Source: Ensifer aridi
GTDB taxonomy: Bacteria; Pseudomonadota; Alphaproteobacteria; Rhizobiales; Rhizobiaceae
Length of the DNA: 64,000 nucleotides
NCBI RefSeq assembly: GCF_002078505.1
Contig: NZ_LUAV01000022.1
Coordinates: forward strand, 1 to 64,000
Direction of reading: 5' to 3'
Part shown: positions 33,423-52,209 of the stretch, piece by piece
Position numbering within the stretch: the first letter of the stretch is position 1
Layout: each line of letters opens with the position of its first letter
Position numbers and translations under genes: made by a program
The notes under the pieces: model-generated
The model's input: the letters and a program-made list of their open reading frames with translations, nothing else
Database searches by the model: none
Told to the model about the DNA's origin: nothing

Positions 33423-35678
<2,256 letters not shown>

Positions 35679-35718: not shown

Positions 35719-37347
35719 CTACGGACGGCCGAGTTTCTCCGCTCCGCCGCCGAGGGCCGGTCCGGCTGTCGGGTCCTCATCCTCGGCAAGGTCGCCGACC
35801 AGCGTTTCCGTCGTGAGAATGAGCTTGGCCACCGAGGCTGCATTCTTCAGCGCCGTGCAGGTAACCCGCACGGGATCGATGATGCCGGCGTCGTACATGT
35901 TCTGATATTCTCCGAGCGCAGCATTGTAGCCGAAGCCGCCGTTGACGCCGGAGACCCTGGCCACGACGGCTTCAGGATCGCCGCCGGCATTTTCGACAAT
36001 CCGCCAGAGCGGTCGCGACAGCACTGATTTCACGAGCCGGACGCCCTCGGCGACATCACCTGAGGCCTTTGCAAGGACGGCATCCAGAACCGGCGCGATC
36101 TGCGCGAGTGCCGTGCCGCCGCCTGCGACGACGCCATCCTCGACGGCCGCCCTGACCGCGTGCAGCGAATCCTCGATAAGTTGTATCGTCCGCTTCTGCT
36201 CGACGGGAGTAACACCGCCCGCATAGAGAACCGCCGTGCCGCCGGACAATTTGGCCAGCCGCTCACGCAATTTGTCCTGCTCTATGTTGGGCGGAGCCAC
36301 TTCATATTGCCGCTGCACCTGCGCGCGCCGTGCGGCGACCTTCGACGCGTCGCCACCGCCACCGATCACCGAGGTGTGGGTGGCGCTGGTGCGTACGCGC
36401 TCGGCGGTTCCGAGATCGTCGTCGGTGACGTCCTCCAGCCTTCCGCCGAGATCACGGGCAATGACCCGGCCCCCGCAAAGGATTGCAAGGTCCTCGAGCA
36501 TTGCCTTGCGCCAGTGGCCGTATTCCGGGGGGTGCACGACGAGGTATTTTCCGGGACCGTCCCGTCCAAGCAGGGTAACGACCACATCCGGAGACACTTC
36601 CTCGGCAATTATGAGAAGCGGCCGGCCAGCCTTTTCTGCGAGCGCGCGGACCGCGTCGAGCGCCTGCGGTTCGCGGACCTTGAGATCCGTCATCAGGATG
36701 AACGGCCGGTCAAGCACGACCTCCATCTTCTCCTGGTCCGTGACCATGTGATGGGAGAGATAGCCGCGGTCGAAGGACATACCCTCGACGACATCGAGCG
36801 TCGTGTCGGTCGTCACGCTGAAATCGGTGGTAATGACACCCTCGACACCCACCCTTTCATAGGCTTCGGCGACAAGCGCGCCGAGCTTCGGGTCCGTCGC
36901 GGCGATATTGGCAACGGCGGCGAGACTCCCGTTCATGGCCGGCTTGGCTGAGGCCCTCAGCGCCTCGACGACGCTGGAGACCGCAAGATCGATCCCCTTG
37001 CAGAGATCGACGGACTTTGCACCACGCTCGTTCGCCTCGATCCCTTTCTGGACGAGAGCGTTGGCAAGGACGATTGCCGTTGTGGTGCCGTCGCCAGCGA
37101 TCTCGTTCGTCTGCATGGACACCTCGCGGACAATCTGCGCGCCCATGTTTTCGAAGCGGTCGTGCAGTTCGATTTCGGACGCGATGCTGACGCCGTCGCG
37201 TGTGACCATTGGTGTGCCGATCGGCCGGTCGATCATGGCATTCATGCCTTTCGGCCCGAGTGTGGGCTCGACGGCTGCAGCCAGCTGATAAACGCCGCGG
37301 GCGAGTGCGCGCCGGGCCTCAGAATTGTGGATCAAAAGCTTGGGCAT
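35719..37347 (-). CDS. groEL: GroEL-type chaperonin dedicated to the monooxygenase
   Basis: A 542-residue group I chaperonin with the ATP-site signatures VEPTLGPKGMNAMIDRP and IAGDGTTTAIVLANAL. It diverges from housekeeping GroEL and ends in GGGAEKLGRP without the usual GGM tail. There is no groES beside it. Propane monooxygenase clusters of actinobacteria carry a similar chaperonin (MimG) that is needed for the large hydroxylase subunit to fold; the same role is likely here. It follows the MIP18-like gene by 63 bases with two small hairpins between. Confidence 0.93.
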   Translation of the reverse strand: MPKLLIHNSEARRALARGVYQLAAAVEPTLGPKGMNAMIDRPIGTPMVTRDGVSIASEIELHDRFENMGAQIVREVSMQTNEIAGDGTTTAIVLANALVQKGIEANERGAKSVDLCKGIDLAVSSVVEALRASAKPAMNGSLAAVANIAATDPKLGALVAEAYERVGVEGVITTDFSVTTDTTLDVVEGMSFDRGYLSHHMVTDQEKMEVVLDRPFILMTDLKVREPQALDAVRALAEKAGRPLLIIAEEVSPDVVVTLLGRDGPGKYLVVHPPEYGHWRKAMLEDLAILCGGRVIARDLGGRLEDVTDDDLGTAERVRTSATHTSVIGGGGDASKVAARRAQVQRQYEVAPPNIEQDKLRERLAKLSGGTAVLYAGGVTPVEQKRTIQLIEDSLHAVRAAVEDGVVAGGGTALAQIAPVLDAVLAKASGDVAEGVRLVKSVLSRPLWRIVENAGGDPEAVVARVSGVNGGFGYNAALGEYQNMYDAGIIDPVRVTCTALKNAASVAKLILTTETLVGDLAEDEDPTAGPALGGGAEKLGRP

Positions 37348-37410: not shown

Positions 37411-38220
37411 TCAGCGCTGCACGTGCCTGCCGGTACAGTTGCGCGGCGGGACGCGGTCGAGAATGAAATCCACCAAGGTCGGTTCTCCGTCGACGACGTC
37501 CATTTCCTTGTAGCGGGTTGCCTTCAGTCCACGGCAGAGTGCGCCGTTGAATTCCATGTTGATGCGCACTGCCCTGAGTTCGGCGAGATAAGCGCCGAAG
37601 GCATCCGGGGGGATCTCCCGATTGTCCCAGGTGACGAACGCCGGTTCGCAACCTTTTCGCCCGGGCCAACGTTCGATCAGTGCCTCGCGGTATCGCGACT
37701 TCATGGCCTCCGCTTCGTCGCCGCCAATCGTCGCGACATCGAAGGAAGACAGGTCCATGCCGAGGATTTCCCTGTCGGTCAGTCCCTGTTTCCGAAGGGC
37801 GAGCAGAACCGCCTCCTGCCGCCGCTTGAACGCCTTCAAACGGAAAGTCTCGCGCAGTGCATCGATGTCTTGGTCACTCGACAGCTCGTCGAAAATCTGG
37901 CTGAACGGCTTGCCGGCCGCGATACCGCGATTGACCTCTTCGGCGAACATGTGGTCGTGAAGCCGGATCGTGTAGGCAGGAGCCCAGGAGAGCGCGTCGA
38001 GCGCCTGGCGGATGCCGTCGAGCATCAGAAAGGCGAAGCTCGGCGAGCACCAGTAGGTGGGCAGCCGGAAATCCACCTCCACCGATCCGTTCTGCATCAC
38101 ATCGGCGCGCTCGACGAAACCCATTTCGGTCACAGGCTCGTCCAGCTCCGGATCGTTGACTCGTGCGAGGCGAGCCCAAAGCTCGGCCCGGCGGTTGTTG
38201 AAAGAGGGGGCCGTACTCAT
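37411..38220 (-). CDS. MIP18/DUF59-type iron-sulfur assembly-like protein
   Basis: A 269-residue protein. The N-terminal 110 residues match the MIP18 (DUF59) family, with DPELDEPVTEMGFV and a cysteine at residue 58 in FRLPTYWCSPSFAF. The remainder is an extension of unknown function. DUF59 proteins help insert iron-sulfur clusters, and a gene of this kind is a usual companion of propane monooxygenase operons. It may help load the reductase cluster or the diiron site. It lies five bases after the amidohydrolase gene. Confidence 0.85.
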   Translation of the reverse strand: MSTAPSFNNRRAELWARLARVNDPELDEPVTEMGFVERADVMQNGSVEVDFRLPTYWCSPSFAFLMLDGIRQALDALSWAPAYTIRLHDHMFAEEVNRGIAAGKPFSQIFDELSSDQDIDALRETFRLKAFKRRQEAVLLALRKQGLTDREILGMDLSSFDVATIGGDEAEAMKSRYREALIERWPGRKGCEPAFVTWDNREIPPDAFGAYLAELRAVRINMEFNGALCRGLKATRYKEMDVVDGEPTLVDFILDRVPPRNCTGRHVQR

Positions 38221-38225
38221 GGCCC

Positions 38226-39248
38226 CTACTCCGCCGCCACGCTGAACGGCGACGCGGCAAGCGCCGCCTTCCTCGCGGCAACGTCGATGTCGTAAAGCCG
38301 GGCGGCGTTCAGGCCGAGTATTTTTTCCTTGATCTCGGGCGTCAGTTCCAGGCCGCGTTCGCGGGCAATATCCTCGGGCAGGTCGAAGGCCCAGAACTTC
38401 TCGACCAGCCAGCGCGGCTTCCAGATGGCGTAATCCGAGCCGAAGAGGAGCTTGTCAGGTCCAAGCCAAAATAAAAGTTCCGCCATCACCTCGGCGAAGT
38501 AGCGCGGCCTCGAATGAATGAACGGCATCGCAACCGCGAGCCCGCCATAAACATTCGTCTCCTGCACCGCAATCCAACAGAAATCGTCGAGCCGCGGCAG
38601 CCCGCAATGTTCAATGATCCAGTTGAGGTTCTGGAAGTCCGTGGCCGCATAGTCGACGTCGTGGACGTCGAAGGCATCCTTGCTCAGCGGAATGATCGTC
38701 GGGCCCTTGTGGACATGGACGTTTTTGATGCCGAGCTTCTCGCACAGCTCGAAGCACTTGTAGGCTTGGGGGTCGGTGAGCTTCCATCCCCTGGAGGCGC
38801 CGTTCCATTCGGCCGTGTACATCTTCACGCCCTTGACGTCGTACGTCTCCTTCATGAAATGGATGTACTCAAGCGCCTTCTCCCCGTCCCGTGGATCGAA
38901 GGAACCGTTTACGATGAAGCGGTCGGGGTAGAGCTTGGCCATCTCGGCGTTTCGCTCGATGGTGTTGAAGCCGTTCTTGTAGAAGTCCTTGAGATAGGTG
39001 GACTGCACGATCGCGACGTCGTCGGGACCCTCGATGAACAGGTCGCGATAGAGGTCGTCGGCCGTGTATTTCTCGAATTTTTCCTTCGGCCAGAGCTGTT
39101 CTGCGGGGCTCAGCGCCGTGTGGTAGGCGTAGAAGCAATCCACGAACTGCTTGCCATGAATATTGCGCTGGTTTTCGGGGCTTCCGTCCCAGAAGTGGGT
39201 GTGCCCATCGACCACGAAAATCTCTTTGCCGTCCGGTGTCTTGTACAT
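38226..39248 (-). CDS. Amidohydrolase-family protein of the propane monooxygenase cluster
   Basis: A 340-residue TIM-barrel metal hydrolase of the amidohydrolase_2 type. The metal-binding HxH is H16-x-H18 in VVDGHTHFWDG; further histidines occur in NVHVHKGPTIIPL and IIEHCGLP. The aspartate-containing LFGSDYAIWKPR closes the site. The same gene follows the coupling-protein gene in actinobacterial mim/prm clusters, where its exact role is not settled. It is separated from prmD by a strong hairpin. Confidence 0.88.
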   Translation of the reverse strand: MYKTPDGKEIFVVDGHTHFWDGSPENQRNIHGKQFVDCFYAYHTALSPAEQLWPKEKFEKYTADDLYRDLFIEGPDDVAIVQSTYLKDFYKNGFNTIERNAEMAKLYPDRFIVNGSFDPRDGEKALEYIHFMKETYDVKGVKMYTAEWNGASRGWKLTDPQAYKCFELCEKLGIKNVHVHKGPTIIPLSKDAFDVHDVDYAATDFQNLNWIIEHCGLPRLDDFCWIAVQETNVYGGLAVAMPFIHSRPRYFAEVMAELLFWLGPDKLLFGSDYAIWKPRWLVEKFWAFDLPEDIARERGLELTPEIKEKILGLNAARLYDIDVAARKAALAASPFSVAAE

Positions 39249-39317: not shown

Positions 39318-39686
39318 TCAGATGTATTCGAACACCTCGTCCATATCGCCGAACAGGATTACCGTGTTGTCGTCGATGCGGACCATCCGCCCGTAGTGGG
39401 TGGACGTGTTCACCTCGAAGATCTCCGCCGTCATCTCGCGGCCGAGGAACTCGCTGATTTCATCCATCTTGAAGATCAGCTTGCCGTTGCCGTCGATGCG
39501 GATCATCGCCGGCTGGTAGGTGACGATGACGCCCGGCTTCTGGCCCATGAACTCGGCGATGGCACGCGCCTCGACGGAATCGTTCATGGTGACCCCACAC
39601 TGATGCGAGATCGTCTGCTCGAAGGTGATGTCCTTCATCGATTTGAAGATATTGGAATTCGAAGCGTCACGTGCTGCTGTTGACAT
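39318..39686 (-). CDS. prmD: Propane monooxygenase coupling (effector) protein
   Basis: A 122-residue MmoB/DmpM-family protein. The family pattern is visible in VGVTMNDSVEARAIAEFMG-like sequence near residues 30-50 and PAMIRIDGNGKLIFKMDEIS in the middle. It binds the hydroxylase and tunes electron transfer and substrate access without carrying a cofactor. It follows prmC by 17 bases. It is also known as MimD. Confidence 0.9.
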   Translation of the reverse strand: MSTAARDASNSNIFKSMKDITFEQTISHQCGVTMNDSVEARAIAEFMGQKPGVIVTYQPAMIRIDGNGKLIFKMDEISEFLGREMTAEIFEVNTSTHYGRMVRIDDNTVILFGDMDEVFEYI

Positions 39687-39703
39687 GTGCGTTCTCCCTG
39701 ATG

Positions 39704-40762
39704 TCAGCTGTTGAGATCGAGTTCGCCGAGGATTTGCCCGATCCGCTCCTGGGATTGTGCACGGATGTCGTCGAACGAGATCGGCTTGGAATGCGGCATC
39801 GACCAGATCGGCTGCAGGCCGAGGGCGGCCTTGTCGGCAAGCGCCCGATGCTTGGAAAGCCAGCTGAGGAAGAGCTGTCGGTTGTGGGCGCCGTGCACCT
39901 CGTCCTGAGCGAGCAGGTAGATGAGGTCGATGGTGTTCGCGAGATTGCGTTCGTAGTCGGCCTCAGCCGCCGAGATCACCGGCGGGGTGATGAAATCGTG
40001 GTTGGCTGCCGCTGACTGCATCAGGAAGCCGGAGCGGAACAGTTCGCCAACCAGCGGTTCGAAGACGATGTTGATCGCGAAATACTGCTCGAGATAGTCC
40101 GCCGAGCCCATGATCGTCTCGACCGCCTCGCGCGTGCCCTGCCAGATCCGGTCTTCGAGCCAGGCCTTTTTGCCGAGCGCGTCGTCCCATCCCGGGATGT
40201 CCATGCCGATTTCGGCGAGATAAAGTGTGATGTCCTGGGCAAGCCGCAGCTTGTAGGAAGAATTGGTCAACGTGGCATTGTTGATCATCTGGGTGTAGCC
40301 ATAGCGTTGCGCCTGCATCAACGAGGTTCCGAGACCGAATTCCGCGTGCTTCCAGGCGCCGAGATGCGATTGCAGGATCTTCACCCAAACCTTGTCATAG
40401 GTCTTCGGCGCACCGGACTTCCGGCCGTTGGCAATGACGCTCTGCACCATCGTCTCGATCTTCGACTGCCGCTGATAATGGGTGCGTTCCCATTCCTGGT
40501 CGGGGGCACGGAAGGCGTGCCAGTTCGAGCTGAGCGCGGCCGTGTTGTCCTTCACGTAGGCGCCCTTGCCGTTCGAGAAATTGATAATCCAGTTCTGGAT
40601 CAGATACCGTTCGGGATCGGGCTGGACGTCGACTGTGACGTCCTCATAGTGGGTGGCACGCTGGCCGCGTGGATCGTAATAACGGTACTTGCGGCTGTCG
40701 GAATCCGCGAATACGGCGGCGCCGGCCGCTCCTGAACCGACTGAACTCGAAATCGCTGGCAT
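39704..40762 (-). CDS. prmC: Propane 2-monooxygenase hydroxylase small (beta) subunit
   Basis: A 352-residue protein of the ferritin-like methane/phenol/toluene hydroxylase family, lacking iron ligands as expected for a beta subunit. Typical segments are PERYLIQNWIINFSNGKGAY near the N terminus and KHAEFGLGTSLMQAQRYG in the middle. It pairs with the large subunit to form the (alpha-beta)2 hydroxylase. It lies 52 bases after the reductase gene. Also called MimC. Confidence 0.93.
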   Translation of the reverse strand: MPAISSSVGSGAAGAAVFADSDSRKYRYYDPRGQRATHYEDVTVDVQPDPERYLIQNWIINFSNGKGAYVKDNTAALSSNWHAFRAPDQEWERTHYQRQSKIETMVQSVIANGRKSGAPKTYDKVWVKILQSHLGAWKHAEFGLGTSLMQAQRYGYTQMINNATLTNSSYKLRLAQDITLYLAEIGMDIPGWDDALGKKAWLEDRIWQGTREAVETIMGSADYLEQYFAINIVFEPLVGELFRSGFLMQSAAANHDFITPPVISAAEADYERNLANTIDLIYLLAQDEVHGAHNRQLFLSWLSKHRALADKAALGLQPIWSMPHSKPISFDDIRAQSQERIGQILGELDLNS

Positions 40763-40814: not shown

Positions 40815-41876
40815 TCAATGGCCCGGTGTGGCGCTGGACGACGTGGTGAACTTGTCGAAGAAGATCCGCTCCGCTTCGAACCCGTTCATGAACAGGACAG
40901 GTTGCAGCGCGTCGATCATTGGCGGGGGTCCGCAGGCATAGACATCGCCCTGCCCGTCCACCCCCAATTCCTTCAGCGTGGCATCGACGCTTTCATGCAC
41001 GAAGCCCCGCGAGCCCTCCCAGGAGGCGTCGCCGTTGGCATGCGACAGCACGGGGATGAAATTCACGCTGGGGTGGCGCGCCGTCAGATCGGCGATCCGA
41101 TCGAGATGGAAGAGATCCTCGCGCGTCCGGGCGCCGTAGAAGAAATAGACCGGTCGTTCTTCGCCGCTCTTCAGGTGATCGTTCAGGATCGACCAGATCG
41201 GCGACATCCCCGAACCGGCGCCAACGAGCACGAGTGGTCCATCCCGCCCCTCACGCCGGAAGCAGGTACCGTAGGGTCCTTCTATGGTGACTTCGGCTCC
41301 GACCCGGATTCCTCCGGAATCGAGCTCTCCCGAGAATTTTCCTTCGGGGTATTTCTTGATGATGAAGGAGAGCTTTTCGGCTTCGTCCGGCGTATTTGCC
41401 ATGGAGAACGAGCGCGTAATCGTCTCCCCTTTTTCCGTTGTGACTGTGATGTCGACATATTGACCGGCCCAGAACTTGATCGACGAATCGAGTTCGATCT
41501 CAATCCCGCGGATGTCGTGTGTCAGCCGCTCGATATGGGCGATCCGTCCGTGATAGGTCTTGACCGCGGTCGACTTTGAGAGGACCTCCTCATCATAGTT
41601 GAGCAGTTCCACTGCCATGTCGGAGTAGGCGAGCGTGCGGCACAGGAGTATGTGGCCGGTGTCCTTCTCCATGTCGTTAAGTGCAAAAGTCGAATATCTG
41701 AGCATGTCGACCTCGCCCTCCAGCAGCACGCATTTGCACGCAGAACACTGTCCTTCCTTGCAGCCGTGCGGCAGCGCTATGCCCTGGCGAAATGCCGCAT
41801 TCAGAACCGTCTCGCCGCTCTCGACCTCGAATTCGACGCCGACCGGCTCCAGACGCACTGTGTGAGCGTCACTCAT
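40815..41876 (-). CDS. prmB: Propane monooxygenase reductase
   Basis: A 353-residue electron-transfer protein. A plant-type 2Fe-2S domain has C39, C44, C47 and C79 (GCKEGQCSACKC and LLCR). The FAD domain carries RSFSMANTP and the NAD domain GAGSGMSPIWSI, with CGPPPMID at the C terminus. It passes electrons from NADH to the diiron hydroxylase. The start at 41876 has GGGAGG eight bases upstream and overlaps the stop of a 64-residue membrane protein gene by ATGA, so its translation is coupled to that gene. Also called MimB. Confidence 0.94.
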   Translation of the reverse strand: MSDAHTVRLEPVGVEFEVESGETVLNAAFRQGIALPHGCKEGQCSACKCVLLEGEVDMLRYSTFALNDMEKDTGHILLCRTLAYSDMAVELLNYDEEVLSKSTAVKTYHGRIAHIERLTHDIRGIEIELDSSIKFWAGQYVDITVTTEKGETITRSFSMANTPDEAEKLSFIIKKYPEGKFSGELDSGGIRVGAEVTIEGPYGTCFRREGRDGPLVLVGAGSGMSPIWSILNDHLKSGEERPVYFFYGARTREDLFHLDRIADLTARHPSVNFIPVLSHANGDASWEGSRGFVHESVDATLKELGVDGQGDVYACGPPPMIDALQPVLFMNGFEAERIFFDKFTTSSSATPGH

Positions 41877-42119: not shown

Positions 42120-43787
42120 TCAATTGAAGGGCCGCACCTGGAAGCCGGCGCGGTATTCGGCGAGATGCTTCTCGCGGGCGTCCGGGGTCATTTCGCGCAG
42201 CAGGGTCAAAGGCGACTGCAGCGTGTGGCCACGAACGTCGTCGAGGGTCCACATCTCCTTGTCGTCGAACCGCAGATGCGGTTGCGGAACGAGCGTCTTG
42301 CCGTCGGAGCGGACGAAATTGAGATCCTTGATCGCATCGGCGAGATCCCAACCGTGATAGAGGGTCTCCCACTCGCGCTTGCCGCTGAAGCGGCCCATGG
42401 CCGGGGTCGGACGCCCCTGGTACTCGTCGGAGAAGGCCTCCACCGCCGTCCAGCGATCGATCTCGTGTGCGAAGGTGTGGAGTTGCCCGTCGATCACGTC
42501 GGTGACGATGTCTTCGCGCACGACGCATGGCACCAGGCTCGACCAGCAGCGATGCGGATAGACGTAGCCGACATCCTCGTTGAAGGTGATGACCTTCTCG
42601 CCGCGATGGCTGAGCTTGTCGTACCACTTCCAGAAGTCGCCGAACTGGGCATACCAGCCCGGATACTTATGCTCGAACCACTCGAAGTCCTGCTCGCGCT
42701 GGGCTTCGATGCGCCAAAAATTGACCGGCCAGCCGACTGCGAAGAACTGCGCGATCTTGTGGACGTAGAACTTCTCGGTGATGCGTTTCCACGCAGTCTG
42801 GACGTCGTCGTGGTGGATCTTGATGCCGTATTTCTCGAGCGGCAGCATGTAGGTGCGGTAGTAGTCCTCGAAGATCCAGCGATGCCACATCTCCGCATAG
42901 GATTCCTTCGACTTGTCGCGGTTGGTGGTACCGTATTCGATGAAGGTGCCGATGGCGGCGTCGACGATCGCGTGGTTCTGCCAGAAGGCGTAGCGCATGT
43001 CGCGCTCGAGGAGCAGATGGTTGTCCGGTTCCTTCAGTGCCGCCATCAGCAGCGAGTGACCGTTGCCGATGTGCCGGCTCTCGTCGGATTGCACGGAGAG
43101 GAACACGGTCGGCAAGGCGTAGTCGCCGTTGCGGGCCGCTTCCGACGGCATCGCGACGAAGAGCGTGTTGGTGAATGCGGTCTCGGCGACGACGGTGAGA
43201 TACATACAGGCGGCCGTCATCGTGTCGCCGGTGATGAAGCCCTCGCCGAACTGGCGGCCGATCGTCGTGGCGTAGCACTTGCCGAAGGCTTCCTCGGTGA
43301 TGTCGAAGCCGGCGGGATCGATGTAGTTCTCCATGTACCACTTCTTCAGATTCATCTGGATGGTGGAATGGCGAAACTCGTCGACCATCTGCATGGTGAA
43401 GCCGGTTCTGAGATCCTCACCGGGGGCAAGGCGGGCGACCATTGCCATCGAGCGCGCGGCCGAAATTTCCGGGAAGGGAATGATCGCCAGGAAGAGCTTC
43501 ATCCACTCCACCCAGCGCGGCTCGACATTGCGGAACATGTCGCCACGCAACGCTGCGTCGAGCGCGCCATAGACGCGGTTATCCTTTTCCTCCTGCATCG
43601 GGAAATAGGATCTGAGCACCTGCTTCATCGGATCGCGAGGCGCCTTGGTGATCTTGTAATCCGTCGGGAAGGTCATCGCTTCCTGGACATAGGTCGGATT
43701 CCAGCCGAGATCGGATATCTTCTTCGTCGCCTCACCGACGGATATTCCGCGCTGCGAGGTTATCTTGTTGAGCGTCAACGACGTCAT
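42120..43787 (-). CDS. prmA: Propane 2-monooxygenase hydroxylase large (alpha) subunit
   Basis: A 555-residue diiron oxygenase subunit. The carboxylate-bridged iron site is complete: E107 ([10 protein letters not shown]), E137 and H140 (DEFRH), E202 (VVAETAF), E236 and H239 (DESRH). The length and N-terminal [20 protein letters not shown] fit propane 2-monooxygenases (PrmA/MimA), which turn propane into 2-propanol and can also hydroxylate acetone or phenol. The start at 43787 has GGAGG ten bases upstream. Transcription should begin about 260 bases upstream at a sigma-54 promoter. Confidence 0.95.
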
Positions 43788-44046: not shown

Positions 44047-44058
44047 CGAAAGGATGAA

Positions 44059-44073
44059 GCAAGGGCCGTGCCA
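44059..44073 (-). promoter_or_regulatory. Sigma-54 (-24/-12) promoter of the propane monooxygenase operon
   Basis: Minus-strand TGGCAC-N5-TTGC is a perfect consensus element. Transcription should start near 44047. The nested palindrome at 44135-44184 lies about 60-110 bases further upstream, the usual place for an enhancer-binding-protein site. Confidence 0.85.
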
Positions 44074-44134: not shown

Positions 44135-44184
44135 GTGTAAATAATCGCGTTACAAATGTAATTTACATATGTAACGCTTTACAC
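44135..44184. promoter_or_regulatory. Nested palindrome, probable activator enhancer site
   Basis: A 31-base near-perfect palindrome (44147-44177, outer arms GCGTTACA and TGTAACGC, inner ATGTAA and TTACAT) is flanked by GTGTAAA (44135-44141) and TTTACAC (44178-44184). Several TGTAA half-sites therefore sit at regular spacing. Its position upstream of a perfect sigma-54 promoter and between divergent operons suggests binding by one of the two AcoR-like activators. Confidence 0.75.
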
Positions 44185-44232
44185 AACTCCTGATATTTGG
44201 AAAGAATACTTTTAACTCACAATGATTCAAAG

Positions 44233-44260
44233 TTGAAAACTTAAATTTCTCTCCCATAAT
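44233..44260 (+). promoter_or_regulatory. Candidate sigma-70-type promoter of the divergent module
   Basis: TTGAAA (44233-44238) and CATAAT (44255-44260) with a 16-base spacer precede the gene at 44301 in AT-rich sequence. No plus-strand -24/-12 element is visible, so this module may be transcribed by a different holoenzyme from the monooxygenase. Confidence 0.4.
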
Positions 44261-44300: not shown

Positions 44301-44774
44301 ATGTCGAAAGAGAACAAGGGCCGGCAGGGCCTTGGGCCGGTCACCGGCCACGATAGCAGCGTGACCGGTGACCTGGTGCGGCTGATGCCTCGCGACCTGG
44401 TCTTCCAGATACGCTTCCTCGGCGAGAGCCAATACCGGCTGCAACGCTATTTCCAGGCGTTCATGGAATCTGAGATGGCCGCCCGCGGCCTGACGCCGGA
44501 AACACACCCGATGATCGGGTCATTCATCGAAACCCATGCCACTCTTCTGCGGGACTTCGTCTTTGCGGGTGTGTCTCTGTCTCACCAGTTCCGCCTGGAG
44601 GAAATCGAGCGCTTGCTTGGCGACAAGGCGAACCTCCTGCGCGTGGATCTTTGGGATCAGTTGAGGAGCCATATCGAGATCGCGGAAAGGCAGTTCCAAA
44701 GCCAGCTTTCCGACCTGCCGGAACAGCTTTCTGCCTGGGAAAAGCCTGGGACAGCGCCGGGCGCAAAGCCATGA
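44301..44774 (+). CDS. Hypothetical helical protein, first gene of the divergent module
   Basis: A 157-residue soluble, mostly helical protein beginning MSKENKGRQGLGPVTGHDSS. The central part (YRLQRYFQAFMESEMAARGL and THATLLRDFVFAGVSLSHQF) has no recognised motif. The ATG at 44301 has GGGAGGA about seven bases upstream. It is divergent from prmA across the control region, so a role in the same physiology is likely. The gene ends in ATGA with a possible next plus-strand start. I do not recognise the family. Confidence 0.75.
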   Translation: MSKENKGRQGLGPVTGHDSSVTGDLVRLMPRDLVFQIRFLGESQYRLQRYFQAFMESEMAARGLTPETHPMIGSFIETHATLLRDFVFAGVSLSHQFRLEEIERLLGDKANLLRVDLWDQLRSHIEIAERQFQSQLSDLPEQLSAWEKPGTAPGAKP

Positions 44775-44782
44775 CCGCCACC

Positions 44783-45046
44783 TCAGTGTCTATTGCCGAA
44801 GGGCTGCCAGGCCCCGAGAACGCCAGCCGGATCCTCGCGAAGCGCCTTGTGCACATCAGCCATCAGGGCCGCCGCCATCTCGCCGCCAAGCGCATTGAGC
44901 GCATCCTGCGCCGCCGCCGTCGCATCGGCATCTCCGACGTCCGCCGCCCGCGCCATCACCTTAACACAGGCATGGTCCGGACCCAGGCGCCTCGCAACGG
45001 CATCTCTCAATGCCGCGAAGAATGTCTTTCCTGCCGTTTCGAACAT
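44783..45046 (-). CDS. Possible small acidic helical protein, antisense within the module
   Basis: An 87-residue frame starting MFETAGKTFFAALRDAVARR, with AGGTGG about five bases upstream of the ATG at 45046. Its alanine-rich amphipathic composition (DALNALGGEMAAALMADVHK) looks like a real protein. The opposite frame (44771-45106, plus strand) is arginine-rich, but is linked to both neighbours by ATGA and GTGA overlaps. Codon-position GC does not separate them clearly. I list this one as slightly more protein-like, but at most one of the two is likely real. Confidence 0.4.
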   Translation of the reverse strand: MFETAGKTFFAALRDAVARRLGPDHACVKVMARAADVGDADATAAAQDALNALGGEMAAALMADVHKALREDPAGVLGAWQPFGNRH

Positions 45047-45102
45047 CTGGTCCACCTTTTGCCTCACCTCTCGGCGCACGGCACTAACGATAGGAGGTTC
45101 GG

Positions 45103-45417
45103 GTGAGCAAGCAAGAGCCATCATCTTCCAATTTGCTGCATCGGCGCCTGGCGCTCGTGGCCGAGCTCGCGGGTCTCAACGCCGAACAGCTGAAACTGAC
45201 ACAAGCGCTGGCAGGCACCGAAATGGAGCTGCTGCGCCTCGAGCTCGAAGCCGATGCCAAGGGCGCGGAGCCACAACTGGTGCAGAACTTGCATGGCGAG
45301 CAAGAGAAGGCGTCGGCGATGAGAGCGCGACTAAGGACCTGCGAAGAACACATTGCCAACGCCGAGGAGGCCATGGCGGAAATCGACCGCCTGCTGGAGG
45401 AGAGCGCAGGCGGCTGA
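45103..45417 (+). CDS. Coiled-coil hypothetical protein of the divergent module
   Basis: A 104-residue protein with a GTG start at 45103, supported by TAGGAGG five bases upstream. Almost the whole length is heptad-like helix (LKLTQALAGTEMELLRLELE and AMRARLRTCEEHIANAEEAM), so it probably forms a coiled-coil dimer. It lies 12 bases before the WD40-like gene. The function is unknown; a scaffold or adaptor for its neighbours is plausible. Confidence 0.75.
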   Translation: MSKQEPSSSNLLHRRLALVAELAGLNAEQLKLTQALAGTEMELLRLELEADAKGAEPQLVQNLHGEQEKASAMRARLRTCEEHIANAEEAMAEIDRLLEESAGG

Positions 45418-45429
45418 GGGAGGAGCGAA

Positions 45430-46554
45430 ATGAACCAGGAGAGTGCCCGCAACCTGACAATATTCGACCTGCTCGCGCGAAGCTGGCAACGACGAGCGAC
45501 GGTCATGGACTTGCGTTTCAACGCCGACGGCACGGCGGTCGCCTTCGCCGGCGCTGACGGCAGTTTGGCGATCGCTCCGCTTGCCGACGCGGAATCGCCC
45601 GAGAAACGCATTCGCGTCAGCGCCGATTTCGGCCAGGCGACGATCCGGCCCCGCAAGGCGCCGCCGCCGCCGTTGATCGAGACGGCGACGCTTGGCGATC
45701 GCACACTTCCTCTTGCCGCTGGACCGGCGGATCGTTTCATCGTCGCGAGCGGCGCGGGCGAACTCCTGTTTGTCGACGCCAGCGGCGAGATCGAAAGCGC
45801 CGGAATACGGGTGAGCGGCCCCGTCATGGCGCTTGACCACTGGGCGGCAAACGGAATTACCGCCATGAGCGACGGCGTGGACCTTTTTCTTTCGCACCAC
45901 CGCAGCCCACCCGTTCGGCTGGAACCGGAGAATTGCGGGGTCGCCGCGATTGCGCTGTCGCCGGACGGACTTCACATTGCGGCCGGCACGGCAAACGGGC
46001 TGCTCCTTTGGGAAACCTCGGAGGCGACGGATCCGCAGAGCATCCACCTTCCCGCTCGACCGATCGCGATAAGATGGAGCGGCGACGGCCGCTGGCTGGC
46101 CTGTCCTCTCGGGCGGCAGGGCATTGGACTCGTCGAAGTCGCCACGAAACGGACGGCGGTCCTGCAGGATTTTCCCGTGCCCGTGGAGTCAAGCTGCTGG
46201 AGCGGGCCGTCCAATGCGTTGATCGCCTCAGGAGCATTCCGCATCGCGGCCTGGACGATGGAAGCGCCCCCGCTGGCCGACAGCAGGTCGGGCGCGCTGA
46301 TTGCCGGCCGATCGGGGCTCGTCGCCGTCGACCGCGTGGCCGCCCATCCCACGAGAAATCTGGTCGCCGCCAGCTATGCCAGTGGCCAGATCGTCGTCGC
46401 CCGCATTGGCGGCGCGGACGAATTGGTGGTTCGCCACGCCGGAGAAGCGGTCACCGCGCTCGAGTGGTCGGCCAACGGAAGCCATCTCGCCATCGGTACG
46501 GCGGACGGGACTGCGGCAATTGTCACCTTCCCGCCGCAAATCTTCAAATCATGA
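45430..46554 (+). CDS. WD40-like beta-propeller protein of the divergent module
   Basis: A 374-residue cytoplasmic protein with several degenerate WD40 repeats, for example VMDLRFNADGTAVAFAGADG, AIALSPDGLHIAAGTANGLL and ALEWSANGSHLAIGTADGTA, consistent with a seven-bladed propeller. No signal peptide is visible. The ATG at 45430 has GGGAGGAG upstream. WD40 proteins usually act as interaction platforms. With a coiled-coil partner and tiny helical proteins it may form a complex linked to the monooxygenase encoded divergently. No known family function is assigned. Confidence 0.8.
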   Translation: MNQESARNLTIFDLLARSWQRRATVMDLRFNADGTAVAFAGADGSLAIAPLADAESPEKRIRVSADFGQATIRPRKAPPPPLIETATLGDRTLPLAAGPADRFIVASGAGELLFVDASGEIESAGIRVSGPVMALDHWAANGITAMSDGVDLFLSHHRSPPVRLEPENCGVAAIALSPDGLHIAAGTANGLLLWETSEATDPQSIHLPARPIAIRWSGDGRWLACPLGRQGIGLVEVATKRTAVLQDFPVPVESSCWSGPSNALIASGAFRIAAWTMEAPPLADSRSGALIAGRSGLVAVDRVAAHPTRNLVAASYASGQIVVARIGGADELVVRHAGEAVTALEWSANGSHLAIGTADGTAAIVTFPPQIFKS

Positions 46555-46564
46555 GGAGGAAACC

Positions 46565-46738
46565 ATGCAGACCGAACTGACCCCTGAGGACAAGAGCAAG
46601 GACGAGTTTTTTGCACGCCTCGCCAGCCTTTCGGAAGAAATGATCGCAAAGCACGGCAAGGAGTTCAGCATGGGCGCGCTGGTGCTGGCGGCACGCTGGA
46701 TCGCGGAGGGCCGGACAGCCGCGAACAAGACATCCTAA
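46565..46738 (+). CDS. Small hypothetical protein, last gene of the divergent module
   Basis: A 57-residue helical protein (TELTPEDKSKDEFFARLASL followed by SEEMIAKHGKEFSMGALVLA). The ATG at 46565 has GAGGAGG about six bases upstream and lies 10 bases after the WD40 gene, so it is co-translated. It has no recognised motif. Its size and placement suggest a binding partner of the propeller protein. Confidence 0.75.
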   Translation: MQTELTPEDKSKDEFFARLASLSEEMIAKHGKEFSMGALVLAARWIAEGRTAANKTS

Positions 46739-46805: not shown

Positions 46806-47066
46806 TCACCGTCCGCTCTCATGCAGAAGACAGAGGGTTCTAAGCACTGAGGCAAAATTCGGCAGGTCCTCGTACATGTGGGCGGCTTCCTCGTGCAGGA
46901 CAGAAATGAGCTTCGGCGTTGTCACGCCCTCGGCGACCGCCATCGCATCAAGGACCTGCCAGAAGGCGGACTCCAGACAGATGCTCGTCGAATGACCCGC
47001 AATCCTCAGCGGCCGGCTGATTTTCCGGAAAGGCTGCGGACCGCTCGCAGTAAGGGTTTTGCACAT
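46806..47066 (-). CDS. Ribbon-helix-helix domain protein, paralogue of the one at 25210
   Basis: An 86-residue RHH_4-like protein with PLRIAGHSTSICLESAFWQV, sharing the GHSTSI-LE-AFW pattern with the protein at 25210-25509. The start at 47066 has GGAAG about six bases upstream. It lies downstream of the alcohol dehydrogenase on the same strand, after a terminator-like hairpin. Target sites are unknown. Confidence 0.82.
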   Translation of the reverse strand: MCKTLTASGPQPFRKISRPLRIAGHSTSICLESAFWQVLDAMAVAEGVTTPKLISVLHEEAAHMYEDLPNFASVLRTLCLLHESGR

Positions 47067-47184: not shown

Positions 47185-48237
47185 TCAAGGGATGAGAACG
47201 GCCCGCCCATGGATGCGACCGTTGTTCAGATCCTGGAGCGCCCGATTTGCGTCGGCAAGACGGTATTCGACCGTTGTCAATTCGACGAGGCCCCGATCGG
47301 CGAGCGCCATCAACTCAACCAGTTCGGCCCACGTGCCGACCAGGTTGCCAACGATGTTCTTCTCGGTGATGACCATGTCGACGGTCGGGACGCGAATGTC
47401 CTCGCCGTAGCCCACGACGTAGTAGCTGCCCATCGGCCGCGTCATGGCGAGCCCTTTGGTCGTCGTGCCTCTCTCGCCGACAAAATCGATGACGGCTTCG
47501 GCACCCTGCCCACCGGTCATTGCGAGCACGGCCTCGACCTCGTTCCCATCAGCCTTGACGAGTTTGTCGGCCCCGATCTTGCCGGCGAGCGCAAGGGAGT
47601 CATCCGATTTGTCGACGACGATGACATCGGCGGCACACATTGCCTTCAGGCACTGGATGCCGATATGGCCGAGGCCACCGGCGCCGATCACGACGCAACT
47701 TTCTCCCGGCAGAAGATGGCGCGTTGCCTTCTTCACCGCGCGATAGGCGGTCAGCCCGGCGTCGGAATACGGCGCGACATCCTTCGGCGCCAGCGTCCGC
47801 GGAAGCGGCACGATGTTGCGCTCCGAGGTGCAGAGATATTCGGCGTAGCCGCCATTGCAATCGAGACCCGGAAATTTTCCCGGGCCGTGCATGTCAAATC
47901 CGCGTCGGCAGGCAAGGCAGGTTCCTCCGGAAATCTTCGGATGGACGATGACCGGATCACCGACCTTGATGCCCTCGACTTCCTTGCCGACCTCTTCGAC
48001 CCATCCGGCATTCTCATGTCCCATGATGAGCGGAAGGAGCTGGTCGCCGCCCGGGTCCATGTGCGGTCGCCAGACGCCCTCGATTATGTGCAGGTCCGTG
48101 CGGCAGACGCCTGCGCCACCTATGCGCACGATGACGTCCGTCGATTTGTTGATTTTGGGATCGGCGACCTCCTCGAGCGAGACCCACTGGTCCGTTTTCA
48201 GGTCGTCGTCGTATCGGTTGAGCACTTGAGCCTTCAT
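47185..48237 (-). CDS. Zinc-dependent alcohol dehydrogenase, probable 2-propanol dehydrogenase
   Basis: A 350-residue medium-chain NAD-dependent dehydrogenase. The catalytic-zinc region is GAGVCRTDLHIIEGVW, with the MGHENAGWVEEVG motif and NAD-binding GAGGLGHIGIQCLK. The structural-zinc lobe is reduced (GGTCLACRRGFDMH). The start at 48237 has AAGGAGGAG upstream. A sigma-54 promoter lies 51 bases upstream, like that of the monooxygenase, so it probably oxidises 2-propanol to acetone. The substrate is inferred from regulation and context. Confidence 0.9.
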   Translation of the reverse strand: MKAQVLNRYDDDLKTDQWVSLEEVADPKINKSTDVIVRIGGAGVCRTDLHIIEGVWRPHMDPGGDQLLPLIMGHENAGWVEEVGKEVEGIKVGDPVIVHPKISGGTCLACRRGFDMHGPGKFPGLDCNGGYAEYLCTSERNIVPLPRTLAPKDVAPYSDAGLTAYRAVKKATRHLLPGESCVVIGAGGLGHIGIQCLKAMCAADVIVVDKSDDSLALAGKIGADKLVKADGNEVEAVLAMTGGQGAEAVIDFVGERGTTTKGLAMTRPMGSYYVVGYGEDIRVPTVDMVITEKNIVGNLVGTWAELVELMALADRGLVELTTVEYRLADANRALQDLNNGRIHGRAVLIP

Positions 48238-48287
48238 CACTGTCTCCTCCTTGCCGGGCAAAGCCCTCCGGCTGCAAGGGGGAATGA

Positions 48288-48302
48288 GCAAGCGTCGTGC
48301 CA
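48288..48302 (-). promoter_or_regulatory. Sigma-54 (-24/-12) promoter of the alcohol dehydrogenase
   Basis: Minus-strand TGGCAC-N5-TTGC is a perfect consensus. Transcription should start near 48276 and give a 39-base leader. An inverted repeat lies about 65 bases upstream. Confidence 0.85.
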
Positions 48303-48458: not shown

Positions 48459-50321
48459 ATGCAGCATGTTTCCGGACTCGAGCGGGCACGCGCCGCTCTC
48501 GAACAGGGTGGCCGGATCCCAGCCGCCGCAGTGACACCGCTCGTTGCCGAAAGCTGGCAACGGTGTCGAGACCTCGGCCTCGATCCCTCGGGTATTCCAC
48601 GCGACGTCGTCATTCCCTTCGGCGACGTGCGCCACAGACGGGATGCGAATGCGGTGCTGAGATCCTTGGCGCTTGCAGAAATGCAGCTCCTCCACACGCA
48701 GATCGCAGGTTCGAATTTCATGATCGCGCTTGCGGACGCCGACGGTGTCGTGCTCGACACGATCAGTGACGCGCATTTTGCCGAGAGCTCTGTCGGACGT
48801 TCCATCATTCCCGGCAGCATGTGGGGGGAAAGCGAGCGCGGGACCAACGCGCTCGGCCTCGTCGCGCGGGAACGTCAGCCGGTCGCCGTCTATGGACGCG
48901 AGCACTACTTCAACTGCCATGGGCACCTGAGCTGCATGGCCGCCCCGATCCTGGATACCAACGGCGAGGTCCTTGGCCTGCTGGATGCCTCCTGCTCGAA
49001 CGAAGCACGTCAGCAGCATACGCACGCGCTCGTGCGTATGGCGGCCGCGCAGATCGAGAATGGGCTCATCTTTCGCGAGAAAGCCGGCAATTTCATCTTC
49101 GCCTTCCATCCGCGCGCGGAATATCTCGATACCCTGTCCGCAGGCCTTATCGCCGTCTCGGGCGACGGCACCGTAGTGTTGGTGAACCGACCGGGCATGG
49201 CGCTTCTTGCCGGGCTGCCGGCAGCGCACGGCGTGCATTTCGACCGTCTGTTCGAGGCCGGCTTCGGCGCGGCTATGGATGGGCTGCTGGGCGGCGGGAT
49301 CATCCGCGTTCGCGACCGGGCCGGCAGCGGCGTGTTCATGGTCTGCCGCCAAATCGGTGAGGGCATGGCGATGCGCGCCAGGGCACGGGCCGCCCCCTCC
49401 GTACCGACTCTTATCTGCGATCCCGACGAGCCGGACTTCGTCTGCGAGGATCGGTTGCTCAAGCGCGCCATGGCCGAACTGGCCGAAGCCGCAGCGCTTC
49501 GCATGCCGGTCCATATTTTTGGGGAGACCGGTACCGGCAAGGAGTTGATGGCCCGCCATCTGCATAAGGTAAGCCGGCGAAAGGGTGAATTCGTCGCCCT
49601 CAATTGCGGCGCGATACCGGAGCCACTGTTTATCGGGGAGATTTTCGGTCACGAGCGCGGCGCCTACACGAATGCGCGTGACGACGGTGCGCCGGGGCTC
49701 GCGCGCGCCGCCGATGGCGGCACACTGTTTCTTGATGAGGTTGCAGACATTCCGCTTGCCTCCCAAACGGCGCTTCTTCGCTTTCTCGATTCGATGGAAG
49801 TGCGTGCCGTGGGCGGACAGAAGGTCCACAAAGTCGACGTTCAGATCGTTTCGGCCACAAATCGGAACCTGCACGACATGGTGAAGGACCGGGCGTTTCG
49901 CGCCGATCTGCTCTACCGGCTCAACGCCATCACGATAAAGCTGCCCGCCCTAAGCGAACGATCCGATTTCCCGCTCGTCGTGCAGCACTTGATGAAGAGG
50001 CTTGCGCCTCAGACGGCAATCACGGACGCGGCTATTGCTCGCCTCGCGCAGCGCGCCTGGCCCGGCAACATCCGCGAACTGAACGCGGCTCTCCAGCGGG
50101 CGCTCGTTCGACGGCAGACGGACTATCTCGATGAGGATTCATTCGATGAATCGGATGAGGATGCTGTAATCGATTGCTGCATGAGCTGTCTGGACAATAC
50201 CCTCAGCAGGCGGCGATGCTCCGAAATCCGCACCACTTATCGGCAGACCGGAAACAATGCGTCTGAAACTGCACGTTTGCTCAGGCTCTCTCGAACGACG
50301 GTCCACAAGCACATCCGATGA
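48459..50321 (+). CDS. AcoR-like sigma-54 activator homologue with altered GAFTGA loop
   Basis: A 620-residue protein with the same layout as the activator at 31263. The sensor region has ESWQRCRDLGLDPSGIPRD and ERGTNALGLVARERQPV. The AAA+ domain has Walker A GETGTGKE (355-362) and Walker B TLFLDE (422-427), and a C-terminal HTH ends ETARLLRLSRTTVHKHIR. The sigma-54 contact loop reads GAYTNA (401-406) instead of GAFTGA. The central ATPase remains intact, so the protein may be a weak or specialised activator or an antagonist. It is divergent from the alcohol dehydrogenase. The ATG at 48459 has GAGGAGG upstream. Confidence 0.9.
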   Translation: MQHVSGLERARAALEQGGRIPAAAVTPLVAESWQRCRDLGLDPSGIPRDVVIPFGDVRHRRDANAVLRSLALAEMQLLHTQIAGSNFMIALADADGVVLDTISDAHFAESSVGRSIIPGSMWGESERGTNALGLVARERQPVAVYGREHYFNCHGHLSCMAAPILDTNGEVLGLLDASCSNEARQQHTHALVRMAAAQIENGLIFREKAGNFIFAFHPRAEYLDTLSAGLIAVSGDGTVVLVNRPGMALLAGLPAAHGVHFDRLFEAGFGAAMDGLLGGGIIRVRDRAGSGVFMVCRQIGEGMAMRARARAAPSVPTLICDPDEPDFVCEDRLLKRAMAELAEAAALRMPVHIFGETGTGKELMARHLHKVSRRKGEFVALNCGAIPEPLFIGEIFGHERGAYTNARDDGAPGLARAADGGTLFLDEVADIPLASQTALLRFLDSMEVRAVGGQKVHKVDVQIVSATNRNLHDMVKDRAFRADLLYRLNAITIKLPALSERSDFPLVVQHLMKRLAPQTAITDAAIARLAQRAWPGNIRELNAALQRALVRRQTDYLDEDSFDESDEDAVIDCCMSCLDNTLSRRRCSEIRTTYRQTGNNASETARLLRLSRTTVHKHIR

Positions 50322-50459: not shown

Positions 50460-51758
50460 CTAATTTGCACGATAGCCGGACGGAAAGATGATGTCCTGGT
50501 CGACGAGGACATTGAACTTGTAGCCCGGCCGAATACGGATGGTCGGCTGCACATTCAGATTCTTCGAGATCGTCTGTTCTACCACCTGGCCGAAACCTTC
50601 CGCGAAATTCCGCCTGGCGGCGTCTGAGGCTGTCTCCTGCGTGCTACGCGTCGAACTCTGAGGCATCGACATGTCGATCCCTGTCCCGATCAGCGCGGTC
50701 AACGCGGCCGATCCGAAAGTCCGCCAGAGATGCCGGTCGACCCTGTCAGCAAAGCCGCCATAGCCTTCGGCGTCGGTACCCGCCATGCCACCGATTTGCA
50801 GAGTCGATCCGTTTGGAAAAATGAGATCTGTCCAGACGACCAATACCCGATCCTGCCCGAAGGAAATCTTCGAGTCATATCGGCCGAACAGCTTGGCGCC
50901 TTGCGGGATGAGGACCCGATAGCCGGTCGCGCTGTCGTAGACGTTCTGGCTGACCTGCGCAGAAATGCGCCCGGGTAGGTCGGAGTTGAGGCCGGTGATC
51001 AACGTGGCTGGAATGACCGAGCCGCGCTTCAGCTCATAGGGCGACATTTGAGGCATGATCTTGTTCGGAAGATAACCGAGATCCTTGATATCCTGATTGA
51101 AGTAATCCTCCTTGGACATCTGGCCGTTTTGACCGGCATTCTGCCCCATGAGCCCGGAATTCATCGCAGCGGCATAGAGGTCCGAGGCGCTGTTTGCTGT
51201 CGCCGGTGTATTCTGCTGACTGGCGTCCGCAGCATTTCCCGCCTTCTCGACATCGGAGATATCGACCTTCAAGGGCGATTCGAGTGCCGTGGCGCGCGCC
51301 TGTAGGCGCGCCATCCGCTGGCGCTGAGCCTCGCGAATATACTGCTCGTCCTGCTCGCGCTTCAGTCGGGCCTTCCATTCCTCTTCGGACTCCAACCTGG
51401 GGCGTCGTTCTTCGCGCGCCGCCGGCCGGCGATCGACAACCGGCTCCTGTTTCCCGACCTTCTGCTCGGTGACAGGCGTCGGCTGGAAGGTCTCGCGTTC
51501 GACCGGCTCGCCGATAATGCCGTCCGTTACACCGCGTTTGAGTTGGTCGCCGAAACTGGTCGCGGGCGGGTCCGACGCGCTTTCGATATCATTGCTTCGA
51601 TTGAAGACGAGACCCCGCCATGAGAGGCCGATCACGATGATACCGACGAAGAAAACGATGACGATGATGGCGACAATGATCGGCACGCGATTGAGGCGAC
51701 GCATGCCCTTCTGATCGTCTGCCTGGCTTGACGCGCCGAGTTGCAGCGACTGCACCAT
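50460..51758 (-). CDS. trbI: TrbI, conjugal transfer (VirB10-like) protein
   Basis: A 432-residue inner-membrane protein with a single hydrophobic segment (VPIIVAIIVIVFFVGIIVIG, about residues 25-45), a proline- and charge-rich spacer, and the VirB10/TrbI C-terminal domain (YELKRGSVIPATLITGLNSD and QGAKLFGRYDSKISFGQDRV). It links the inner and outer membrane parts of the type IV secretion channel. The start at 51758 has GGGAGGAG upstream. It is the last gene of the operon. Confidence 0.94.
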   Translation of the reverse strand: MVQSLQLGASSQADDQKGMRRLNRVPIIVAIIVIVFFVGIIVIGLSWRGLVFNRSNDIESASDPPATSFGDQLKRGVTDGIIGEPVERETFQPTPVTEQKVGKQEPVVDRRPAAREERRPRLESEEEWKARLKREQDEQYIREAQRQRMARLQARATALESPLKVDISDVEKAGNAADASQQNTPATANSASDLYAAAMNSGLMGQNAGQNGQMSKEDYFNQDIKDLGYLPNKIMPQMSPYELKRGSVIPATLITGLNSDLPGRISAQVSQNVYDSATGYRVLIPQGAKLFGRYDSKISFGQDRVLVVWTDLIFPNGSTLQIGGMAGTDAEGYGGFADRVDRHLWRTFGSAALTALIGTGIDMSMPQSSTRSTQETASDAARRNFAEGFGQVVEQTISKNLNVQPTIRIRPGYKFNVLVDQDIIFPSGYRAN

Positions 51759-51771
51759 GTGTCTCCTCCCG

Positions 51772-52209
51772 TCAGCTCCGTTGCATGATCGAAAGCGGGC
51801 TTGCTGGTATGGCGCCATCGGACGTCGCCGTATAGGCCCTGCCAAGAGCAATTGACGGCGTCGAAAGTCTTGCGAGCACCTGACCCTCGACGCCATCGAT
51901 CGAGTAGGCGAGTTCGATCGGCTTGACGTCTCGTCCGACTTTCCCGTCGGTAATGACCGTGTAGCCCCAGCCCTTCAGGGCCGCCTCGAGCGCCATCGCG
52001 AACTCCGACGTGTCCTTGTTCATCTTGATGGTTGTCGTGCCGGCGGGGCCGATTTGCTCGGCAAGCCGGCTTGCCATGTCACCCGCGATGGCGCTCGCAG
52101 CGGGCCCGGTCGCCGGCATAGGGGTAGCCTTGGCGGTCAAGCCCACGTCGTGGCTTTGGCAACCGGAAAGAAGACCAGTAACGAGAAGTAAAAGGAAGAG
52201 TTTCTGCAT
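51772..52209 (-). CDS. trbH: TrbH, conjugal transfer lipoprotein
   Basis: A 145-residue protein with a lipoprotein signal ([19 protein letters not shown], lipobox LSGC). The rest matches TrbH of Ti-type trb operons. It is an outer-membrane-associated part of the mating-pair apparatus. It lies between trbG and trbI with gaps of only a few bases. Confidence 0.88.

Follow-up and report, generated by a model that had tools for sequence, protein, structure and literature searches.

The first 64,000 nucleotides of contig NZ_LUAV01000022.1 from Ensifer aridi (assembly GCF_002078505.1; hereafter the window) carry a propane monooxygenase-type (prm) gene cluster and, opposite its first gene prmA, four plus-strand genes coding for p157, p104, a WD40 protein and p57 (hereafter the module; the names p157, p104 and p57 give the lengths in residues, and the WD40 protein has 374), with a minus-strand gene, pm, among them. 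Almost certainly the module is a lineage-specific set of accessory genes dedicated to the di-iron monooxygenase of group V (Prm/Mim-type) that occurs in Alphaproteobacteria and Caballeronia. The four genes had been described in a first-pass annotation of this DNA and do lie at the positions given there.

The dedication to the oxygenase is seen in samples drawn from opposite ends. Ninety-one loci (the window, 80 contig loci and ten plasmid regions) were picked by the WD40 protein alone. One peptide pattern retrieved 88 relatives from 84,980 species genomes, and the best 80 of these supply the contig loci, which leaves distant relatives under-sampled; the plasmid regions are ten of the 12 records with at least 80% coverage (H8 and H12 were left out). 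The oxygenase alpha subunit, PrmA, is present in 83 of the 91 loci. Three more (L033, L098 and L120) have other oxygenase subunits at the locus edge and alpha beyond it, in L033 on the same plasmid about 11 kb off, while L099, L117, L118 and L119 are short contigs or are cut at the WD40 gene (L107 and L119, contigs of one genome, are probably two ends of one WD40 gene). In all, 86 of the 87 assessable loci adjoin oxygenase genes, so that homologues are consistently found beside monooxygenase genes, the opposite of lying consistently away from them. The one true orphan, in Phyllobacterium zundukense (L030), has no oxygenase genes within 10 kb and looks as if the oxygenase had been lost. It adjoins a block of VOC, Tat-signal and GMC oxidoreductase genes (L030:12307-14991), and such a block also accompanies the WD40-less Prm clusters of Azospirillum and Methylocella. 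Alpha is cut in at least three of the 83 loci (L035, where it adjoins IS21, L059 and L108; nine loci were checked), and there the module seems to outlive the enzyme. In L108, from Pseudogemmobacter bohemicus, the first half of prmA continues as the latter half of the gene for the GroEL-like protein (L108:6532-8091); the genes between these two were not found at this locus, and WD40 and p57 look whole.

Samples drawn by PrmA give the same picture. PrmA, full-length WD40 and p157 occur in the same five of 33 genomes of the genus (Fisher p 4e-6). In the order sample (297 genomes), a full-length WD40 orthologue is present in 17 of the 20 genomes with PrmA versus 0 of the 277 without (Fisher p 6e-25), where an orthologue scores above 260 bits and starts at model position 1-7, a cut set after the gap between orthologues and paralogues was seen (267 versus 219 bits). 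Together with the 86 of 87 loci, this is an association far beyond chance, and it supports the link to the oxygenase that the first-pass annotation proposed. Fifteen of the 17 orthologues lie within about 2 kb of prmA; the others are ~10 kb from it (G082) and on a separate contig (G119). Among the three genomes with PrmA and no WD40, G224 cannot be judged, as its contig stops 1.2 kb past prmA, and G184 and G199 carry the most divergent PrmA proteins of the order sample (80 and 82% identity); both genomes have p57 directly before prmA, and p104 is found in G184 (E 2e-7) and weakly in G199 (E 0.005). A propeller-like gene behind GroEL in G184 (L155:3314-4423) was considered as the missing WD40 and rejected, being a YNCE/cytochrome-D1-type propeller. 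Where PrmA is at least 88% identical, WD40 is present in all 17 assessable genomes of the order sample and all five of the genus sample. In the class sample (289 genomes), PrmA occurs in two, one of them G355, and p57 in one, the window's own. Module and oxygenase genes are divergent, co-directional or ~10 kb apart among relatives, and are still kept together.

A PrmA tree suggests how the association arose. After near-identity reduction from 99 rows to 53, with the short row L108 dropped and the base unresolved, 51 rows are labelled (L157 and L189 are out of the count) and 40 have WD40. The WD40 label takes two changes on this tree, whereas shuffled labels average 10.1 and none of 500 shuffles came as low, which argues that WD40 arrived once or twice. 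Most rows entered through WD40, a bias that keeps the label count from showing by itself that WD40 was never lost; retention is shown only by the PrmA-drawn samples.

The 374-residue protein is a WD40 beta-propeller, as first proposed: it scores 47 bits against PF00400 (cut-off 27), the Pfam family ANAPC4_WD40 is also above its cut-off, and the AlphaFold (AF2) model has a predicted local distance difference test (pLDDT) score of 93 and a best Foldseek match to 5yzv (E 1.9e-15). LFDLLARxW is conserved towards its N-terminus, and F-K towards its C-terminus. The coiled coil and the small helical protein that had been announced beside it are likewise recovered. p104 has a coiled-coil look and little fixed sequence (87 of 91 loci), and the AF2 model of p157 (pLDDT 81.5; 79 of 91 loci) is all-helical except for two short strands. 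p57 is strongly conserved (KDxFF...HGKDFxMGALxLAARxIAE) and present in 88 of 91 loci.

None of the module genes corresponds to a known monooxygenase component in Pfam, NCBIfam or PDB sequence searches, in agreement with the first-pass annotation. Pfam scans of 14 p157 and 25 p57 members, an NCBIfam scan of the same number of p57 members, and scans of p157, p104, p57 and pm of the window against both databases returned no credible family; profiles of p157, p57 and pm gave 0, 1 and 9 matches at E<=10 in PDB sequence searches, none credible. The fold search with the p157 model gave no confident match (best Foldseek E 2.0; best VIA-align Z 5.2, usual for helical bundles), and the Pfam and NCBIfam scans assigned the module proteins no domain for signalling or DNA binding. 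The ratios of nonsynonymous to synonymous substitution rates (dN/dS) are 0.09-0.54 for the four plus-strand genes between the window and six other loci (one p57 pair is unchanged), so these genes are coding beyond chance. The module proteins change faster than PrmA (dN 0.09-0.45 versus 0.005-0.04, wider pairs), which fits helpers better than catalytic parts. PrmA itself is under strong constraint: that of L042 (Sinorhizobium sp. 8-89) is 99% identical to the window's at a dS of ~0.6 and a dN/dS of ~0.008.

The minus-strand gene pm, which the first-pass annotation did not list, is present in 28 of 91 loci and is conserved in a 14-row alignment. Five of six pairs give it a dN/dS of 0.15-0.32 (dS is saturated in the remaining pair); in the plus-strand open reading frame that overlaps it, by contrast, the ratio exceeds 1 in four of the six pairs, and five of the six contain stops. 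The gene pm is annotated in public records of Gemmobacter, Shinella, Paracoccus and Ponticoccus, and in 28 of 29 loci 33-169 bp separate its start from the p104 start (starts chosen by script). In L042 there is a stop inside pm and a frame break in p157. A weak match to the pm family (E 1e-5 before iteration) lies near the prm cluster of G199 (L156:928-1197), away from the usual place of pm.

The description of the four genes as tightly spaced holds for p104, WD40 and p57; p157 is split from p104 by 328 bp, the interval occupied by pm (Table 1). In 85 of 87 loci p104 and WD40 are no more than 30 bp apart, with an overlap in 22, and the gap between WD40 and p57 ranges from 10 to 47 bp; p157 and p104 overlap in 25 of the 55 loci where pm was not detected (for relatives, a script picked the start codons of the small genes). 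Such short gaps and overlaps fit a single operon with translational coupling. The start of prmA is 513 bp from that of p157. The gene order A, B, C, D on the minus strand, with PF02332 alpha and beta subunits, reductase and coupling protein, marks the cluster, on sequence grounds, as that of a group V soluble di-iron monooxygenase, and its substrate may be of the propane/acetone type, judging by the kinship of PrmA to that of Methylocella tundrae (77%).

Table 1. Module, oxygenase cluster and control elements (positions in the window unless a locus is named; HMM, hidden Markov model)
Feature	Position	Strand	Remarks
p157	44301-44774	+	157 aa, ATG start; opens module; predicted all-helical, family unassigned
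pm	44783-45046	-	87 aa; divergent from p104
p104	45103-45417	+	104 aa, GTG start; coiled-coil-like
WD40 beta-propeller protein	45430-46554	+	374 aa, ATG start
p57	46565-46738	+	57 aa, ATG start; small conserved protein
prmA, oxygenase alpha subunit	42120-43787	-	PF02332
prmB, 2Fe-2S/FAD reductase	40815-41876	-	domain profile match
prmC, oxygenase beta subunit	39704-40762	-	PF02332
prmD, coupling protein	39321-39689	-	HMM match in 81/91 loci; MmoB/DmpM name in annotated relatives
Amidohydrolase	38226-39248	-	name from annotated relatives; HMM match in 80/91 loci
Iron-sulfur assembly (DUF59-type) protein	37411-38220	-	name from annotated relatives; HMM match in 80/91 loci
GroEL-like chaperonin (MimG type)	35719-37347	-	annotated relatives and HMM match
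Sigma-54 activator (GAF, AAA, Fis-type)	48459-50321	+	domain matches; probable prmA regulator
Sigma-54 promoter of prmA, TGGCACGGCCCTTGCT	44058-44073	-	perfect match
Sigma-54 promoter of alcohol dehydrogenase gene 47185-48237	48287-48302	-	perfect match
Palindrome, two TTACANNTGTAA dyads	44147-44177	.	dyads 44150-44161 and 44163-44174
Candidate sigma-70-like promoter of module	44233-44260	+	weak, consensus match only
rpoN genes beside module	L031:12345-13631, L036:13354-14616, L037:14341-15600		Rhodobacterales

The first-pass annotation had argued from a palindrome shared by prmA and the module. The palindrome is real and consists of two TTACANNTGTAA dyads, with no further site of this kind in the window even if one mismatch is allowed, but it looks like part of the sigma-54 control region of prmA. 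Perfect sigma-54 boxes occur at just two places in the 64 kb, the prmA promoter and that of the alcohol dehydrogenase gene; matches with up to two mismatches are no commoner than chance (32 versus 28 expected). In 79 of 83 loci the alpha start has a box nearby that deviates from the consensus at one position at most. Of the 77 loci where the script obtained a box (six of the 83 gave none), 67 have a dyad, again allowing one mismatch, in the 150 bp upstream of it, against 0.6 expected in shuffles. What is conserved is the 12-bp dyad; no long perfect palindrome common to all loci was found. The dyads are probably the upstream activating site of the prmA promoter, through which the activator gene at 48459-50321 may act on prmA.

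No sigma-54 box with up to one mismatch faces the module in the window; with the palindrome at the position of an activating site of prmA, this leaves co-regulation of module and prmA unsupported as it had been argued. None precedes p157 in any of the 91 loci at this threshold, and the one-mismatch matches that nine of them have close to where p104, WD40 or p57 begins are provisionally taken for chance or coding sequence. Where module and prmA are co-directional, in Caballeronia (L032, L038), Celeribacter (L102) and Roseicyclus (L115), a one-mismatch box stands before alpha with the module upstream, which suggests that prmA and the module are probably transcribed apart; no box before alpha was found in the co-directional L037 and L112. 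Besides the candidate promoter in Table 1, another sigma-70-like match lies at 44178-44207 (two found versus 0.4 expected, by consensus match only).

Further genes surround the cluster. A second sigma-54 activator (GAF, AAA, Fis; 31263-33278) and a peroxidase gene (33423-35672; 749 aa, the size of a catalase-peroxidase) lie at its GroEL end, so that the cluster is bracketed by two activators. In three Rhodobacterales clusters an own sigma-54 (rpoN) gene adjoins the module. Downstream of p57 a ribbon-helix-helix protein (PF13467) is encoded at 46806-47066; it has relatives in 27 of 91 loci, and relatives also adjoin the WD40-less clusters of Azospirillum and Methylocella. Between 50460 and 63193, conjugation genes (TrbI, 50460-51896; VirB4/TrbE-type, 55850-58306) and a ParA/RepA-like gene (60945-62168) followed by another open reading frame make the window resemble part of a plasmid-type replicon.

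What the module does for the oxygenase may be suggested by the closest relative of its propeller. At E<=10 the WD40 protein has a single relative in the window genome, and each is the best match of the other. They share 30% identity over about 210 residues; the paralogue has about 330 residues, and the first part of the prm copy (model positions 1 to about 85) is its own. The paralogue gene adjoins a CobW-type (COG0523, ZNG1-like) GTPase gene, on the same strand and within 500 bp, in 21 of 25 distinct loci, and lies within 1 kb of it in 23 (27 loci were counted as 25, L161/L166 and L163/L182 being the same place twice); the GTPase was identified by a Pfam check of three GTPases and the annotation of Sinorhizobium meliloti. 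From its WD40 and creatininase neighbours, we infer that this GTPase belongs to COG0523 subfamily 5. According to a 2009 comparative study (PMC2770081), prokaryotic genes of this subfamily form clusters with znuABC and with genes for WD40 proteins and creatinase, and several sit behind predicted Zur sites.

Because its closest relative adjoins a metal-chaperone GTPase, a maturation role (folding or iron-loading) is favoured for the WD40 protein, and the GroEL-like and DUF59-type genes in the prm cluster itself favour it further. It is tentatively proposed that the module helps to mature or maintain the oxygenase; of the three roles once put forward (assembly, localisation or sensing), the kinship to a GTPase-linked propeller leans to assembly. 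The propeller would be a docking platform with coiled-coil p104 and helical p157 and pm, and p57 would be the small factor nearest PrmA. The module might present apo-PrmA to iron, or hold PrmA for the GroEL-like and DUF59-type proteins of the cluster; contact with PrmA, iron loading and the roles of the small proteins are all inferred. A bolder version, in which a GTPase-partner propeller was duplicated, recruited beside prmA once or twice and joined by three to four new small proteins into a new dedicated metallation machine that loads or repairs the iron site, appears somewhat unlikely. A Mim-type oxygenase was obtained active only with a co-expressed chaperonin (PMC7570240).

Several observations weigh against a maturation role. 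WD40, p104 and p157 were not detected in the Prm clusters examined with a PrmA identity of 73-80% (Azospirillum, two of four plasmid records examined; Methylocella tundrae, one of two examined; Indioceanicola; Skermanella; G355), in two Rhodococcus clusters (PrmA 64%) or in a more distant Mycobacterium cluster (37%). The Skermanella cluster has p57 all the same, and G184 and G199 likewise carry p57 and no WD40. Clusters of this kind imply that the enzyme type can mature and catalyse without the WD40 protein. Moreover, L103 and L191 carry WD40 without a DUF59-type gene between D and GroEL, the 30% identity of the two WD40 proteins says little on function, and the module, with no sigma-54 box facing it, may not be made together with prmA.

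Other explanations account for part of these data. Propellers and coiled coils are typical scaffolds, and the presence of both protein types, the strict linkage to the oxygenase and the faster evolution of the module than of the enzyme would suit a scaffold that gathers PrmA, reductase, coupling protein and alcohol dehydrogenase, or that places them at a membrane rich in gaseous substrate. Nothing among the tests points to a membrane or to contacts, however, and Prm clusters do exist without the module; a scaffold is rather unlikely. The separate transcription of the module, probable as it is, would befit a sensor made before induction that keeps the GAF/AAA sigma-54 activator of the cluster informed of substrate, product or the state of the oxygenase, and in Bradyrhizobium sp. 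CB82 the module stands directly behind an activator gene. Yet the activator has a GAF domain of its own, the same activator type is present in the WD40-less clusters of Azospirillum and Methylocella, and the domain scans gave the module nothing for signalling or DNA binding; a sensor or regulator is unlikely.

To our knowledge, group V enzymes have no gamma subunit, and p157 or p57 could take its place: p157 is all-helical in its model and presumably of a size resembling the gamma subunit of methane monooxygenase, and p57 is encoded directly before prmA in Caballeronia, G184 and G199. On the other side, p157 is undetected in nine of 40 WD40-bearing rows of the PrmA tree, and it has neither a PDB sequence match at E<=10 nor a confident fold match; this explanation is improbable. 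Finally, several copies are plasmid-borne and some lie near insertion sequence (IS) elements, as if neighbours without joint function had merely been transferred together in one block. Against this stand the retention of WD40 in every assessable genome with PrmA at least 88% identical (PrmA-drawn samples), the rearranged order and orientation of genes that stay together, and the purifying selection on the module genes; chance company of this kind is very improbable indeed.

A conserved helper set, unstudied so far, in dozens of rhizobial genomes makes the question of how such oxygenases acquire iron approachable. The module may also allow heterologous production of these oxygenases. At least three protein families without a Pfam or NCBIfam match come with it, and p57 looks good as a marker of this oxygenase lineage.

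Compared with known systems, the module stands apart in several respects. The COG0523-linked WD40 proteins adjoin a GTPase, whereas the annotated features of six prm clusters include no gene of the CobW type. In eukaryotes, the targeting complex of cytosolic iron-sulfur assembly (CIA) pairs the propeller CIAO1 with the DUF59 protein CIA2. By analogy, the prm cluster, which has both kinds of protein, might unite them in one metal-maturation set. An obligate WD40-DUF59 pair was considered and rejected, because L103 and L191 have the one without the other in the place named above, and L152, L156 and L187 have DUF59 without WD40. No match to the phenol hydroxylase accessory family of the PHK/DmpK subunit was found for 25 p57 and 14 p157 members (Pfam, E<=1).

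Among open-licence PMC papers, none was found that links a WD40 protein to propane or soluble di-iron monooxygenases; Figure 5 of PMC9213486 marks some oxygenase-neighbour genes as of unknown function. The group V clusters of Gordonia, Rhodococcus and Methylocella (prmABCD) and of Mycolicibacterium (mimABCD) have the same subunits as the window and a GroEL-like protein. The Rhodococcus cluster also has an amidohydrolase and a metal-sulfur cluster protein, like the window (Figure 1 of PMC4428276). The difference lies in the module: WD40, p104, p157 and p57 were not detected in the Rhodococcus and Methylocella tundrae clusters examined, and the window has all four. A likeness to the module is offered by the GroEL-like MimG and by PHK/DmpK, which, according to PMC7570240, are products of helper genes needed for, or aiding, an active di-iron enzyme.

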